Assembly: GCA_945864305.1 (NCBI GenBank)
Contig: CAMBAJ010000001.1
Span: forward strand, 1-64,000
Source: an uncultured Clostridia bacterium
GTDB taxonomy: Bacteria > Bacillota > Clostridia > Oscillospirales > Oscillospiraceae
DNA length: 64,000 bases
Direction of reading: 5' to 3'
Under the pieces are notes generated by a model, which was not told the DNA's origin, made no database searches, and saw nothing but the letters and a program-made list of their open reading frames with translations. The stretch's first letter is position 1, and every line of letters begins with the position of its first letter. The translations under genes and the position numbers were made by a program. Positions 5,964 to 47,680 of this stretch are shown in pieces.

Positions 5964-6185
5964 GATTTTCTCTCCATTTTCCGAATTTCATTAGCTGTAA
6001 TATTATATAGGAGCGGAATTTATTTGTAAAGGGGAACCTGTTTTTTCATGGAGTACATTGGTTGTTCATAGTTTGTTCATGACTGTATCCTTTGTTTCGG
6101 CTATGTTATAGGCAGGAAAGTATTATGTAACCATCCATCATTGATTTGTACCTGTTAAATGCGACGATTTATGGAGGGAAAAACG

Positions 6186-9100
6186 ATGAAGAGATTTTTC
6201 AGAAAACAATTGCCGGCCATTCTGCTGGCGCTGACCATGATGGTCAGTCTGGTGCCTGCCGCCATGGCGGATAATGAAAATACGCCGCCAAGTCAAAACA
6301 CCTGTGAACATGTATGGAGCGGCTGGGTCGAAACGGTAGCGCCAAAGTGCAATGCAGAAGGTACAAAGGTCCGCTCCTGCACTCTCTGCGAAAAAACAGA
6401 AACGGAAACAGTTTCCCCAACCGGTGCCCATTCTTATGAGCAAATCAGCAATACAGCCACTTGCGGCAAAGATGGCATTATTACCGAGCGATGCACCGTC
6501 TGCGGTAATGAGGTCACACGGGCAAGTTATGCAACCAACGCTCATACGTGGGTCAACGATGGTGCACCGAATCCAAGTGCCACTTGCGGTACAGCAGGCA
6601 GTCAGCCTCAGAAGTGTTCTGACTGCGGTGCTACACAAACAGTAACGATTCCCGCGACTGAACAGCATACCTGGGGAACATGGCAAACTACGAAAGCTGC
6701 CACCTGTACGGTGGCCGGTACTCAGACCGCTACCTGCTCAGTCTGCCATCAAACCAAAATTCAAACGCTTGACGCCCTGGGCCACGTGGACAGCAACAGC
6801 GATGGCAAGTGCGACCGCTGCGGTGCCAATATGGGCACCTATTACACCGTGACCTTCCAGTATCTGAACTCCAGCCTGAGTACCACCTACAGTGAAAAGT
6901 CTGTGGCCGCCAACAGCTATGCCTCCGCGCCGTCCGTCACCAACAAGATCACCTCCGGCGGAAAGACCTACACCTTCGCGGGCTGGACCACCACTTTCAG
7001 TGGGAGCAGCAGCTGGTATCTCTACAAGAGCCAGAGTCTGGTCAATCCGTCCAGCTACCGCATTACCGGCAATACCACCTTCTACGCCGTCTACTCCACC
7101 GCCAGCGATTCCACCATCACCTACACCGTCGCTCCCGGCAAGGAGGAGTCCTTCTCCGCCAGCGACTTCAACTCCGCCTACAGGGGCGAGTGCAGCGGTA
7201 CGTTCCGCTACGTCACCTTCAGCGTGACCAGCAGCGCCTACAACAGCTTTGAGGGCGATATCTACTGCGGCAGCACCAAGCTCAGCCGCTCGCAGCTGAC
7301 TTCCTCTGAATTCTACTACAGCAGCTCCTCCTACGGCGATTACGCCCTCAGCGACCTGTCCCTGGTGGCGCCTTCTTCCGCTGATAAGGATACTCTGACG
7401 CTGTCCTTCACCGCGTACGGCAGCAGCGGCTACAGCATGGAGGGCACCGTGAAACTGGTCATCGACGGCAAGGGCTCCGGCGACATTACCTACAAAGTGG
7501 CTGCTGGAAAGGAAGTCGCCTTTGATGAGGATGATTTCAACGATGTCTTCCAGGAGGAGTATCCCAACTACAACATGAAATATGTGACCTTCTCCACCTC
7601 CGACACCCTGAGCACCTCCGAAGGCACCATCTACTATGACTACGGTTACAGCGATCAAAAATCCTTCACCAAGAGTACCATTGACGACTATACCTTCTAT
7701 TACGGCAACAATTCCAGCTATGATTATCCGCTGGACGAATTGTCCTTCGTGGCCGGCAAGAACGCCTCTGACCACACCGTGGAACTGTCCTTCCGAGCTT
7801 ACTACAACTCTTCTAGATATGTGGACGGCACCCTGACCATTGAAGTTGGCGACGGCGGCTCTTCCAGCGACATCACCTATAAGGTGGCCGCCGGCAAGGA
7901 AGCGGCCTTTGACGAGGACGATTTCAACAAGGTCTTCCAGAAAGAGTATTCCAGCTACGACATCAAATACGTCACCTTCTCCACCTCCGCCACCCTGAGC
8001 ACTTCTGAGGGCACCGTCTACTACGATTACGGGTACAGTGACGAGAAGTCCTTCACCAAGAACACCATTGACGACTACAAATTCTATTACGGCAAAAATA
8101 CCAGCTCCGGTGATTACGCCCTGGACGACCTGTCCTTCGTAGCCGGCAAAAACGCCTCCAAGCGCACCGTGGAGCTGTCCTTCCGGGCTTACTACAACTC
8201 TTCCAAATATGTGGACGGCACCCTGACCATTGAGGTTGGTGGCAGTTCTTCCGCCGATATCACCTACAAGGTGGCCCCCGGCAAGGAAGTGGCCTTTGAT
8301 GAGGATGACTTCAACAGCGTCTACCGCAAGGAGTACTCCTCCGGTACCATTAAATGGGTGGAGTTCACGGCTCCTTCCACGCTGACCAGCGCCGGCACCA
8401 TCTACTACGACTACGGCCGCAGCGATCAGAAGTCCTTCACCCGTTCCACCCTCAACAGCGCCAAGTTCTACTACGGCACCTCCAGCAGCTACGGCGATTA
8501 CGCTCTGGACGATCTTTCCTTCGTGGCCTCCAGCAGCTTCAATGCCGCCGTAGAGCTGTCTTTCCGGGCCTATTACAGTGATTCCAAGTATGTGGACGGC
8601 ACGGTGGTCCTCCAGCCGGACGGCACTGCCGCCTCCTCCAACTATATCGGCAATATCCGGTATTCCACCACCACCGGCACCAAGGTCCAGATCAACGCCA
8701 ACGACATCTCCCGGTTCTTCTCCAAGGTCTGCCCCGGCTACACCATGCAGTATGTGATGCTCACCGGCGTGCCCTCTACCGGCAGCCTGTATTACAACTA
8801 CTATGGAACCAGCAAGTACGGCACCACCGCCAAGGCCCAGATCACCGCCTCCAATTGCGGCGGTCAGGCGTTCTACGCCAGCCCCACCTCCACCAGCCAG
8901 TTTGCGCTGACGGAGCTGACTTACGTGCCCAGCGGCTCCAACTATTGCGCCTCCATTCCCTTCACCGCCTACAGCGGCTCCCGCTCTGCATCCGGTGCCA
9001 TTCTCATCAGCGTCAGCAACTCCACTGTGGCGGAGGTCTACGGCGCAACGCCCAAGAACACCGCTGTCACCTTCCCCGCCAGTTCCATCTACAACGCGGT

Positions 9101-9866
9101 CCTCAACGCCACCGGTTCCGCCCTCAGCAGCATCCAGCTGCTGAGCCTGCCCTCCTATACCACCGGTACGGTCTATGTGGGCACCGGCACCTCTACCGCC
9201 GCCAACACCACCACCCAATACACCTACGGCGGCACCATGAACCAGCTTCGGTTCGTCCCCGCCACCGGCTACACCGGTTCTGTTGAGATCCCCTACGTGG
9301 CGCTGAACAGCAATGGCACCGCCATTGCCTCCGGCACCTTCTCCCTGGGCGTGGTGAACAGCGTGAAGAAGTTCTCCGACGTGACCACCTCCACCTGGTG
9401 CTACAAGTATGTGGCGGAGCTGTCCGACGCCAGCGTCATCGCCGGCTACAACGACGGCACCTTCAAGCCCAACAGCACTGTCACCTACGGTGCGGCGCTG
9501 AAGCTCATCATGCTGGCCGCCGGTTATCCCGAGCAAAAGCCTGTCAACAGCAATGTCTTCAGCGGATATCTGGCCAAGGCCCGGGCCGAGGGCATCATCA
9601 CCCGCAGCAACGTGGACCTGACCAAGCCCATCACCCGCCTGCAGGTGGCCCAACTGGCCGCCGGCGCTCTGAAGCTGAACACCAGCAACCTGTCCAGCGT
9701 GAAGCCCTTCACCGACACCAATGACGCCAGCGTCCAGGCCCTGAACGCCGCGGGCATTGTGGAAGGCTACTTCTCCAACGGCACCAGCACCTACAAGCCC
9801 AACAACACCCTGACCCGCGGCCAGGTCTCCGCCATCGTCTGGCGCATGCAGAATTACAGAAAATAA
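6186..9866 (+). CDS. Large secreted surface protein with Cys-rich N-terminal repeats, tandem approx. 125-aa repeats and C-terminal SLH domains
   Basis: Signal peptide MKRFFRKQLPAILLALTMMVSLVPAAMA; repeated ITYKVAAGKEVAFDEDDFN...YVDGTLTIEVG blocks; C-terminal SLH-like FSDVTTSTWCYKYVAELSDASVIAGYNDGTFKPNSTVTYGAALKLI. Confidence 0.85.
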   Translation: MKRFFRKQLPAILLALTMMVSLVPAAMADNENTPPSQNTCEHVWSGWVETVAPKCNAEGTKVRSCTLCEKTETETVSPTGAHSYEQISNTATCGKDGIITERCTVCGNEVTRASYATNAHTWVNDGAPNPSATCGTAGSQPQKCSDCGATQTVTIPATEQHTWGTWQTTKAATCTVAGTQTATCSVCHQTKIQTLDALGHVDSNSDGKCDRCGANMGTYYTVTFQYLNSSLSTTYSEKSVAANSYASAPSVTNKITSGGKTYTFAGWTTTFSGSSSWYLYKSQSLVNPSSYRITGNTTFYAVYSTASDSTITYTVAPGKEESFSASDFNSAYRGECSGTFRYVTFSVTSSAYNSFEGDIYCGSTKLSRSQLTSSEFYYSSSSYGDYALSDLSLVAPSSADKDTLTLSFTAYGSSGYSMEGTVKLVIDGKGSGDITYKVAAGKEVAFDEDDFNDVFQEEYPNYNMKYVTFSTSDTLSTSEGTIYYDYGYSDQKSFTKSTIDDYTFYYGNNSSYDYPLDELSFVAGKNASDHTVELSFRAYYNSSRYVDGTLTIEVGDGGSSSDITYKVAAGKEAAFDEDDFNKVFQKEYSSYDIKYVTFSTSATLSTSEGTVYYDYGYSDEKSFTKNTIDDYKFYYGKNTSSGDYALDDLSFVAGKNASKRTVELSFRAYYNSSKYVDGTLTIEVGGSSSADITYKVAPGKEVAFDEDDFNSVYRKEYSSGTIKWVEFTAPSTLTSAGTIYYDYGRSDQKSFTRSTLNSAKFYYGTSSSYGDYALDDLSFVASSSFNAAVELSFRAYYSDSKYVDGTVVLQPDGTAASSNYIGNIRYSTTTGTKVQINANDISRFFSKVCPGYTMQYVMLTGVPSTGSLYYNYYGTSKYGTTAKAQITASNCGGQAFYASPTSTSQFALTELTYVPSGSNYCASIPFTAYSGSRSASGAILISVSNSTVAEVYGATPKNTAVTFPASSIYNAVLNATGSALSSIQLLSLPSYTTGTVYVGTGTSTAANTTTQYTYGGTMNQLRFVPATGYTGSVEIPYVALNSNGTAIASGTFSLGVVNSVKKFSDVTTSTWCYKYVAELSDASVIAGYNDGTFKPNSTVTYGAALKLIMLAAGYPEQKPVNSNVFSGYLAKARAEGIITRSNVDLTKPITRLQVAQLAAGALKLNTSNLSSVKPFTDTNDASVQALNAAGIVEGYFSNGTSTYKPNNTLTRGQVSAIVWRMQNYRK
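7480..8640 (+). repeat. Tandem in-frame approx. 375-bp repeats within the SLH protein gene
   Basis: Three near-identical and one diverged copy of ITYKVA[AP]GKE.AFDEDDFN...SFTK.TIDD..FYYG...LSFVAGKNAS..TVELSFRAYYNSS.YVDGTLTIEVG. Confidence 0.85.
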
Positions 9867-9912
9867 GCTCCCTGAAATGTTGAAGAGGACTGCCTTCCGG
9901 CAGTCCTCTTTC

Positions 9913-10845
9913 TCATATCTCTTCACGCTGCATGCGGCGGCGCTGGGCCAGCAGCCACTCCCGGTCCCGGCGAGCGGCCTCATCTCCGGGGTCTGCCTGG
10001 AGGATATAGCCCACCCGGCCCAACAGATGGTCCAGATAGGCCCGGGGCGTCATTTCACCGCCGGTCCGCCGCAGGTGGTCCTCCACACCGAACCTTTGGC
10101 AGTAGTAGACCGCCTGGCGCACCGCCCGGCGCTCCTCCGCCGGTACGCGGACGCCGCGATTCACCACCAGCCCTGTCACCGTCTGCCGGCGGCCGTCCCG
10201 GCAAAGGCGGGTCTTTCCGGCATGGAGGAAAAAGCCCAGCGCGGCCAGTTCCTCCTCCGCCTTCTCCCGGACACCGTCCAAATGCTGTCCGGAGAACACC
10301 AGGTCGTCGCAGTAGCGGGAATAGGTGACGCCCCGCTCCCGGCACCAGGCCCCCAGGCCCTCGTCAAAGTCCCGCAGGAGAATGTTGACGATGGCAGGGG
10401 AGGTGGGCGCCCCTTGGGGCAGGCCGTCCCGGTAGTAGCAGAGCATGGTCAGCAGGATGCGCAAGGGCTCGGAGAACACCTCCGGCGGGAACACGGTCTC
10501 CTTCACCGCCGTGTAGCGGACGCTGTCAAAGAAATGGCGGATATCCAGGCGGAGCACCTCCCGCTGTCCCGTGTGCCGGGCGGCGTTCCGGACCGCGCCG
10601 GAGCCGCAGCGGTAGGCTGTGGCGTAGTGGGACACTGGCATATAGGCCAGAAGGTTGCGGTAGATGCTGCGCTGGATGCGCTTGAGAATCTCATCCGGCA
10701 CCGCCAGCTGCCGCTCGCCGCCGTTCTTTTTCGGAATCTTCACCGTGTGATAGTGGGACGGCAGACTGTTGCTGACGGCGTACAGCGTCCTGGCGTCGAT
10801 TTTCAGGTCCCGGGCGAGGGTGGAGACCTCCCGATATACAATCAT
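9913..10845 (-). CDS. Retron-type reverse transcriptase
   Basis: 310 aa; NAARH immediately before LRLDIRHFFDSV (region X NAxxH), LPQGAPTSPAIVN, YSRYCDDLVFSG, VTGLVVN (region Y VTG motif); AGGAGG 8 nt before the ATG at 10845. The longer ORF call (to 11016) runs into the ncRNA. Confidence 0.93.
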   Translation of the reverse strand: MIVYREVSTLARDLKIDARTLYAVSNSLPSHYHTVKIPKKNGGERQLAVPDEILKRIQRSIYRNLLAYMPVSHYATAYRCGSGAVRNAARHTGQREVLRLDIRHFFDSVRYTAVKETVFPPEVFSEPLRILLTMLCYYRDGLPQGAPTSPAIVNILLRDFDEGLGAWCRERGVTYSRYCDDLVFSGQHLDGVREKAEEELAALGFFLHAGKTRLCRDGRRQTVTGLVVNRGVRVPAEERRAVRQAVYYCQRFGVEDHLRRTGGEMTPRAYLDHLLGRVGYILQADPGDEAARRDREWLLAQRRRMQREEI

Positions 10846-10871
10846 GTGGAAGCCTCCTTTCCCAGGCCCTC

Positions 10872-11047
10872 CGGAACAAAACCAGTCTGCATGGCGAGAC
10901 GCGCGGCGGTATCGTGAGCACACAGCGTGTGCGGTAATACCGCTGTGCGGCCTCGGCTGAGCGCAGCGAATACGGGGCAGATGCCAGTCCCGGCGGCGAC
11001 TCGCCGCCGGTGCCAATGGGAGCCATTGGACCCTTTCTTTTGTTCCG
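10872..11047 (-). ncRNA. Candidate retron msr-msd non-coding RNA
   Basis: Perfect 10-bp IR (a1 CGGAACAAAA at 11047-11038; a2 TTTTGTTCCG at 10881-10872, minus strand) enclosing hairpins CCAATGG-CTC-CCATTGG (11013-11029), CCGGCGGCGA-G-TCGCCGCCGG (10990-11010) and a longer hairpin with CACAGCG/CGCTGTG arms (about 10909-10973); ends 26 nt before the RT start. Confidence 0.85.
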
Positions 11048-11231
11048 TGCGCCGCCCTTTCGGGTCTGCGTTATGTCCACCATACTCCTTTTTTCCCGCC
11101 GCCGCAAGAGGCGCGGCCGCCCTTTTGAAAAATTCCCCCGCGGAACGGCTTTTATGCGCCCATAATCTGGACGGGAGGGCGTTTCCATGCTATCATGATT
11201 CCATCATATACAAATACGGGAGGATTTCCAT

Positions 11232-12812
11232 ATGTATTTGCAGGATCAGCACAAGGTCTGGCTGGCCACCGGCGACACGCCCATCTATCTGGAGCCCGCC
11301 ATGGCCAACCGCCACGGCCTTATTGCCGGCGCCACCGGCACTGGCAAGACCGTCACACTGAAGGTGCTGGCGGAGTCCTTCAGCGACATGGGTGTGCCGG
11401 TGTTTCTGGCGGACATCAAGGGCGACCTCAGCGGCATGTGCCTGCCGGGACAGGAGAACAAGCACATCCACCGCAGCATCGACACCATGGGCATCACAGG
11501 CTTTGACTACACCGCCTATCCCGTCCGCTTTTTCGACGTCTACGGCCAGAAGAGCCACCCCGTCCGCACCACCATCTCCGAGATGGGGCCGGAGCTGCTG
11601 AGCCGCCTGCTGGGCCTGAACGACACCCAGAGCGGCATTCTGCGCATCGTGTTCCGCATCGCCGACGACCAGGGGCTGCTGCTCATCGACCTGAAGGACC
11701 TGCGGAGCATGGTCCAGTACGTGGGCGACAACGCCAGGGAGTACAAGCTGACCTACGGCAACATCTCCAGCCAGTCCGTGGGCGCCATTCAACGGGCATT
11801 GCTGGCTCTGGAGGACGAGGGCGGCGGCATCTTCTTCGGAGAGCCCGCCCTGGACATCGCCGACTGGATGGACTGGGCGGAGGACGGCCGGGGCGTCATG
11901 AACATTCTGGAGTGCCAGGAGCTGTTCCAGCATCCGCTGCTGTACGCCACCTTCCTGCTGTGGATGCTCTCGGAGCTCTATGAGATGCTGCCTGAGGCCG
12001 GAGACCTGGACAAGCCCAAGCTGGCCTTCTTCTTCGACGAGGCCCACCTCCTGTTCAACGGTGCCCCCAAGGCGCTGGTGGAAAAGGTGGAGCAGGTGGT
12101 GCGGCTGATCCGCTCCAAGGGCGTCAGCGTCTGGTTCATCACTCAGAATCCCTCCGATATCCCGGACAGTGTCCTGGGACAGATCGGCAACCGGGTCCAG
12201 CACGCACTGCGGGCCTACACCCCCAACGACCAGAAGGCCCTGCGGGCCGCCGCCAAATCCTTCCGGGTCAACCCGGCCTTCAACACCGAGGAGGCCTTAC
12301 AGGCCCTGGGTGTCGGCGAGGCTCTGGTGTCCGTTCTGGACGAGAAGGGCGTGCCCTCCATCGTGCAGAAGGCGGGCATCCTGCCGCCCCGCAGCTCCAT
12401 GAGCGCCGCACCGGAGGCAGATGTCCAGCAGGCCATTCAGAAAAGCCCCCTCTATCAGAAATACGCCCAGTCCATGGACCGCCGCTCCGCCTATGAGGTT
12501 CTGGAGGAGGTCCGGGACCAGCAGGCTGCCCAGGAAGAGGCGGCGGCCCGTCAGGCGGCCTGGGAAAAGGAGCAGAAGGCCCGAGAGAAAGAAATGAAAG
12601 CTCAGCAGGCCGCCTGGGAGCGGGAGCAGCGGGAACGGGAGCGGGCATACCGGCAGGCTCCGCCCCGGCGTCCCTCCGCCTCCAGCCGGTCCACCTCCAG
12701 CCGCAGGAAGCAGGACCCTCTGGAAAAGGCCATCAACTCCGCCGCCAACACCGTGGGCCGGGAGGTCGGCAAGCAGATCGTCCGGGGCCTGTTCGGCACC
12801 TTCCGCCGCTGA
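11232..12812 (+). CDS. HerA/VirB4-like DUF853-type P-loop ATPase
   Basis: Walker [17 protein letters not shown], Walker [52 protein letters not shown]. Confidence 0.9.
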
Positions 12813-47236: not shown

Positions 47237-47429
47237 TTTGCTTTTACAAGGGAAAAAGTAACACTTTTCTAACAACAATTTTTCGCACTCTCTTCGGAGT
47301 CATTTATAACGTATTCTTTCCTGCAAACCCTGTGCAAATACATCCTTGACGAAATGCAAATGGTATTGTACAATAAGTAAAAATTATAAATAATGTGAGT
47401 ATGCATCATAATGCATTATATACCAAAAA

Positions 47430-47640
47430 TGATCGGGTATCTCATGTAATGTAAGATATCCGAATGAGGAAATTCGGTGAGAGACCGAAACGTGCCGGCA
47501 CTGTAAGCGAGAGACTTGGCCTAAACGCCTGATAGGCGCTGAACGTGAGTTCGCCATTGGAGCAATCTGAGAAGGTGGGCAGTAAGTCGCAGAAGATAAT
47601 TTCTTCTTATCGCAAGTCAGGAGACCTATTTTGGGGAATT
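47430..47640 (+). promoter_or_regulatory. Cobalamin riboswitch
   Basis: GAGGAAATTCGGTGAGAGACCGAAACGTGCCGGCACTGTAAGCGAGAGACTT ... GCCATTGG ... GAAGGTGGGCAGTAAGTCGCAGAA ... AAGTCAGGAGACCTA. Confidence 0.92.
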
Positions 47641-47680
47641 TGACAGGGGACGTGGAGTTCCTCTGTTTTGCTGTGGGAAT

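Follow-up and report, generated by a model that had tools for sequence, protein, structure and literature searches.

A retron of the Ec107 (Eco5) family in an Oscillibacter-like gut Firmicute, with two parts and a predicted msDNA product

Retron-Ec107 and a related reverse transcriptase

A retron consists of a reverse transcriptase (RT) and an RNA that the RT copies into a short DNA. Retron-Ec107 (Eco5) of Escherichia coli replaces a palindromic 34-bp intergenic sequence, has an RT noted for its YCDD motif, and shows increased expression in phosphate starvation and in stationary phase (PMC6868368). It is present in 373 out of 5426 complete E. coli genomes, with one copy in each and always on the chromosome. 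The 34-bp site is presumably the slmA(ttk)-pyrE gap, and the search result agrees: when the K-12 slmA-pyrE region was searched in E. coli genomes, genomes with an RT insert exactly at this site were found, and the element in the two loci that were read (L060 and L061) consists of a non-coding RNA (ncRNA) and an RT only.

The window, which denotes the whole 64,000-nt stretch of DNA analysed here, very probably contains a complete Ec107-family retron made up of two parts, hosted by an Oscillibacter-like gut Firmicute and with msDNA as its predicted product (Table 1). The element is assigned to this family because the best PADLOC model for its RT is RT_Ec107-like (E 1.8e-118, 393 bits; the next, type III-A, scores 280 bits), because the RT is 44% identical over 286 aa to the RT at the Ec107 site, and because a covariance model of clostridial ncRNAs finds the Ec107 ncRNA (see below). 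The top PADLOC model of the E. coli Ec107 RT is likewise RT_Ec107-like. Both RTs carry YCDD, as do nearly all Ec107-like RTs compared (L029 is the exception).

The motifs NAARH, LDI, LPQGAPTSP and VTGLVVN, on which the original prediction had relied as retron signatures, are all found in the translation of 10845-9913, together with YCDD (RYCDD, RT residues 177-181). The RT therefore has the NAxxH of region X and the VTG of region Y that serve as general retron criteria, the motifs being as defined in PMC6868368. An AlphaFold model (pLDDT 88) displays a plain retron-RT fold with no extra domain, and the best 18 PDB matches of a Foldseek search with this model are all retron chains (18/18). The RT tree places the window RT among the retron RTs, within an Oscillospirales group that has good support; support for the node that unites Ec107 with the clostridial clades is only moderate. 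Purifying selection acts on the RT, with dN/dS values of 0.15-0.26.

A covarying ncRNA upstream of the RT gene

Table 1. Features of the retron and its surroundings (positions in the window).
Feature	Position	Strand	Details and basis
SLH-domain protein	6159-9866	plus	1235 aa; repetitive; divergent from prfB
Likely bidirectional terminator hairpin	9883..9909	.	Common to the convergent RT and SLH genes; sequence reading
Retron RT	9913..10845	minus	310 aa; Ec107-like; RBS AAAGGAGG at 10860-10853; PADLOC, BLAST, AlphaFold
a2 repeat	10881-10872	minus	TTTTGTTCCG; 3' boundary of ncRNA; perfect complement of a1
Predicted longest msDNA template	10882..10987	minus	Up to ~106 nt; analogy with Ec107
msd stem-loop	10896..10954	minus	Core 10943-10906; helices 4 and 5
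Box between msr and msd stem	10953..10973	minus	GTATTCGCTGCGCTCAGCCGA / GTATTCGCTNCGCTCAGNCGA; ncRNA alignment
msr hairpin 2	10990..11010	minus	CCGGCGGCGAGTCGCCGCCGG; helix 3; core kept from Clostridia to E. coli Ec107
msr hairpin 1	11013..11029	minus	CCAATGG/CCATTGG; helix 2; fold and covariation
Predicted branch G	11037	minus	2'-OH msDNA priming; in invariant A-G after a1; role by analogy with known retrons
a1 repeat	11047-11038	minus	CGGAACAAAA; 5' boundary of ncRNA; perfect complement of a2
Putative sigma-A-type promoter	11079..11107	minus	TTGCGG-N17-TATGGT; sequence reading
HerA-like (HerA_C-type) ATPase	11232-12812	plus	Between retron and MATE gene
Cobalamin riboswitch	47415-47642	plus	Rfam RF00174, 51.6 bits

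Direct reading of the sequence bears out the predicted inverted repeat, which is perfect over 10 bp, spans 176 nt from a1 to a2 and ends 26 nt before the RT's ATG start codon at 10845 on the same strand. The hairpins described between its arms, two compact and one longer, are likewise present; the limits of the longer, msd hairpin had been placed at 10973-10909 and are corrected here to about 10954-10896. Taken alone, the inverted repeat is weak evidence, because, when the 400 nt upstream were dinucleotide-shuffled 2000 times, 5.25% of the shuffles contained a perfect repeat of at least 10 bp with suitable spacing. None of 200 shuffles folds as well as the 180-nt RNA (z -4.0). Moreover, most close relatives have an inverted repeat at the equivalent place, written in different letters with compensating changes (arms such as CGGCTGAAGCCGTA, TTTGAACAATA and ACCAGTTAA).

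Conservation across 20 homologous loci is decisive for the reality of the ncRNA. An alignment of the 20 homologous ncRNAs, Ec107 included, gave an RNAalifold consensus structure of five helices and 34 pairs, 26 of which show double compensatory changes; shuffled alignments gave 12.5 +/- 2.0 such pairs (0/500 reached 26) and slid controls 10-14. The fraction of paired cells was 93.0%, against 78.2% in shuffles and 31-44% in slid controls, and the covariation score of 0.433, attained by no shuffle, compares with 0.177 and 0.07-0.10, respectively. In helix 1, formed by a1 and a2, eight of the ten pairs are doubly changed and 93.8% of cells are paired. Helix 3 has 96.5% of its cells paired and five doubly changed pairs, with an invariant GCG-GTCG, and helices 4 and 5 of the msd stem show double changes in five of six pairs each. 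All 20 aligned ncRNAs, that of Ec107 among them, carry the same A-G immediately 3' of a1. The repeat and hairpins are thus kept with covariation in homologous loci, and the original prediction of a complete retron of standard architecture is supported by both the RT family and the covarying ncRNA, msDNA being predicted. The box at 10953-10973 is strongly kept in most clostridial copies, lies outside any covarying helix, and is either missing or divergent in Ec107 and a small number of other ncRNAs.

A covariance model, R1, was built from the clostridial ncRNAs alone, with no Ec107 sequence. It matched the Ec107 ncRNA at the correct place and on the correct strand in both E. coli loci (E 3.4e-6 in L060 and 8.8e-8 in L061); the retron-free K-12 allele (L059) gave no match, and no ncRNA was found with it in the type III-A loci L062 and L064. 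Covariance modelling against known families had been suggested at the outset as a check; the ncRNA had no match in Rfam at either gathering or relaxed thresholds. As for the flanking signals, the putative promoter falls below the listing threshold of the promoter scanner, and a near-identical TTGCGG-N17-TATCAT stands at the equivalent position in the related locus L001. A hairpin equivalent to the terminator-like one, which lies in the 46 nt between the RT and the convergent SLH gene, is also found 3' of the SLH gene in retron-free congeners.

Genomic context and alternative readings

A related-locus search yielded 11 clostridial loci. The Ec107-like RT profile matched in 24 out of 394 genomes of the order, about 17 of them at full strength; within the genus, an RT match was found in 12 out of 61 genomes and the ncRNA in 10, each of these also with an RT, and no orphan ncRNA (an R1 match without RT) was seen among the relative genomes. 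In one relative, genome G145 (L053; L038), a distance of about 4.5 kb separates two Ec107-like retrons; both have an ncRNA match of their own (L053, 4631-4796 and 9238-9380), and one of the RTs is broken by three stops. No relative was found in the viral contigs searched, and no integrase, phage or plasmid link was found for the window retron. There is no sign that it travels on phages or plasmids, because plasmid and phage records hold only distant retrons with less than 60% identity. The genome of the window also harbors a second RT (L013; G000:C2:77526-78167, plus strand; 511-aa open frame near a contig end), which matches DRT2 (PADLOC Drt2, E 1e-147), a defence RT whose product is a repetitive toxic gene.

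Neighbouring genes were clustered across 31 loci (ORFs of at least 60 aa, E 1e-6), and no conserved neighbour emerged except the SLH gene, shared by the window and the four relatives closest to it. With these limits, a very small or rapidly evolving partner encoded elsewhere in the genome may have escaped the search. The prfB-SLH pair occurs across the genus, and the repeat part of the SLH protein varies strongly. A tripartite anti-phage retron with the HerA-like ATPase or the SLH protein as its effector could be envisaged, since several defence systems include HerA-like ATPases (weak PADLOC matches) and the SLH gene lies next to the RT in these five loci. Both genes, however, are encoded on the strand opposite to the retron. 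The prfB-SLH pair is found in retron-free congeners, so the SLH-prfB pair is a genus feature and a meaningful linkage of SLH to the retron was rejected. The HerA-like gene lies between retron and MATE gene in the window lineage only and sits elsewhere, without a retron, in congeners. In L001 and L104, where the retron occupies the same site, this gene is missing and the arrangement reads MATE-retron-SLH-prfB (in L001, 186 nt separate the MATE stop from a1), and the HerA-like gene is therefore most likely a later arrival in the window lineage, judging from gene order. Synteny thus largely refutes both genes as effectors, and this reading is very unlikely. Type III-A effectors were sought with a profile built from the type III-A phosphoribosyltransferase, which recovered only its own seeds, L055 and L112 (type III-A-like, from the same order) among them, and none of the Ec107-like loci; a type III-A effector near the window retron was thereby rejected. 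The window element is composed of ncRNA and RT only, with no accessory effector gene at the locus, and the Ec107 family seems to have no toxin partner gene. With no effector gene of its own, the window retron is not a usual tripartite defence retron.

Two further alternatives concern the identity of the element itself. If a degenerate or domesticated RT merely happened to lie downstream of fortuitous hairpins, no working retron would exist; this would fit the inverted repeat alone, which reaches only p ~0.05, and is highly improbable in view of the intact catalytic motifs, the dN/dS values and the covariation of the ncRNA. That the gene represents another RT element, namely a group II intron, a DGR or a DRT, is extremely unlikely: the RVT_1 fold is common to all of them, but the motifs are retron-specific, the RT reaches only 66 bits with the group II model, whose cut-off is 300, and the best 18 structural matches are all retrons. 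PADLOC, BLAST to Ec107, the tree and Foldseek all place the RT with retron RTs and not with group II or DGR enzymes, the placement that would have refuted the original prediction. The window element is a real, complete and ordinary newly found member of the known Ec107 family.

Predicted product, function and relation to known retrons

By analogy with known retrons, a single transcript starting at about 11070 would carry both the msr-msd RNA and the RT message. Pairing of a1 with a2 would present G11037, and the RT would bind the msr, with hairpin 2 as the likely recognition element, prime on the 2'-OH of G11037 and copy the msd to approximately the end of hairpin 2. Host RNase H would then trim the template, and the branched RNA-DNA would stay bound to the RT; an RNase H dependence shown for Ec107 is cited in PMC8989520. 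In Ec107, a stretch of 107 nt measured backwards from a2 reaches a point just 3' of hairpin 2; applied to the window retron, this rule would give an msDNA of up to ~106 nt. The predicted product is a branched msDNA of roughly 90-106 nt, and this DNA is predicted to fold into a hairpin of -26.9 kcal/mol, with a z-score of only -1.6.

Since no dedicated effector is encoded with it, the retron would either act by itself or rely on a host protein whose gene lies elsewhere. It is possible that the retron has an effector in trans, a host or distant protein that its RT-msDNA particle holds or senses, as in toxin-antitoxin-like defence retrons; this is a question of function within the retron reading and does not compete with the identity of the element. 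The majority of studied retrons act together with an effector (PMC12548924), and in the nearest effector-bearing relatives, of type III-A (L062, L064, L055 and L112), the phosphoribosyltransferase adjoins the RT, both of which argue for such a partner. Nevertheless, the type III-A phosphoribosyltransferase was not found in the window's own genome, a weak negative, and no conserved RT-adjacent partner exists among the ~30 relatives. It is quite possible, and tentatively proposed here, that the Ec107 family, common to gut Clostridia and E. coli and maintained by purifying selection with ncRNA and RT alone, is an effector-free retron lineage in which the msDNA particle has its own job or a core host protein as partner. 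If so, this lineage would fall outside the toxin-antitoxin model of retrons. The partner gene is missing from both of two insertion contexts that are unrelated to each other and have clear limits, which makes the role of an effector-less retron directly testable. About 20 comparative ncRNA sequences are now at hand for the Ec107 family, and the new RT-ncRNA pairs are candidates for in-cell ssDNA production.

Among the known retrons, retron-Ec86 (Eco1, type II-A) is similar to the window retron in its RT fold (Foldseek E 1e-18), its a1/a2 repeats and its msr-msd order, but the RTs are only ~25% identical and the NDT-like effector belongs to Ec86. Type III-A retrons are closer, providing the second-best RT model and having retron motifs in common with the window RT. 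However, their catalytic tetrad is YADD or YTDD rather than YCDD, and the window locus lacks the phosphoribosyltransferase and the small DNA-binding-type protein upstream. Ec107 differs in host phylum, insertion site and msd loop sequence, and the box ATTCGCTNCGCTCAG of the window retron is not kept in it. The two elements have the same ncRNA plan: the A-G after a1, the GGCGAGTCGC hairpin, the msd stem and the short a2-RT gap are found in both, and each is a single chromosomal copy with one RT and no effector. The covariation shows the Ec107 RNA-RT pair to be an old, stable module common to Firmicutes and Enterobacteria.
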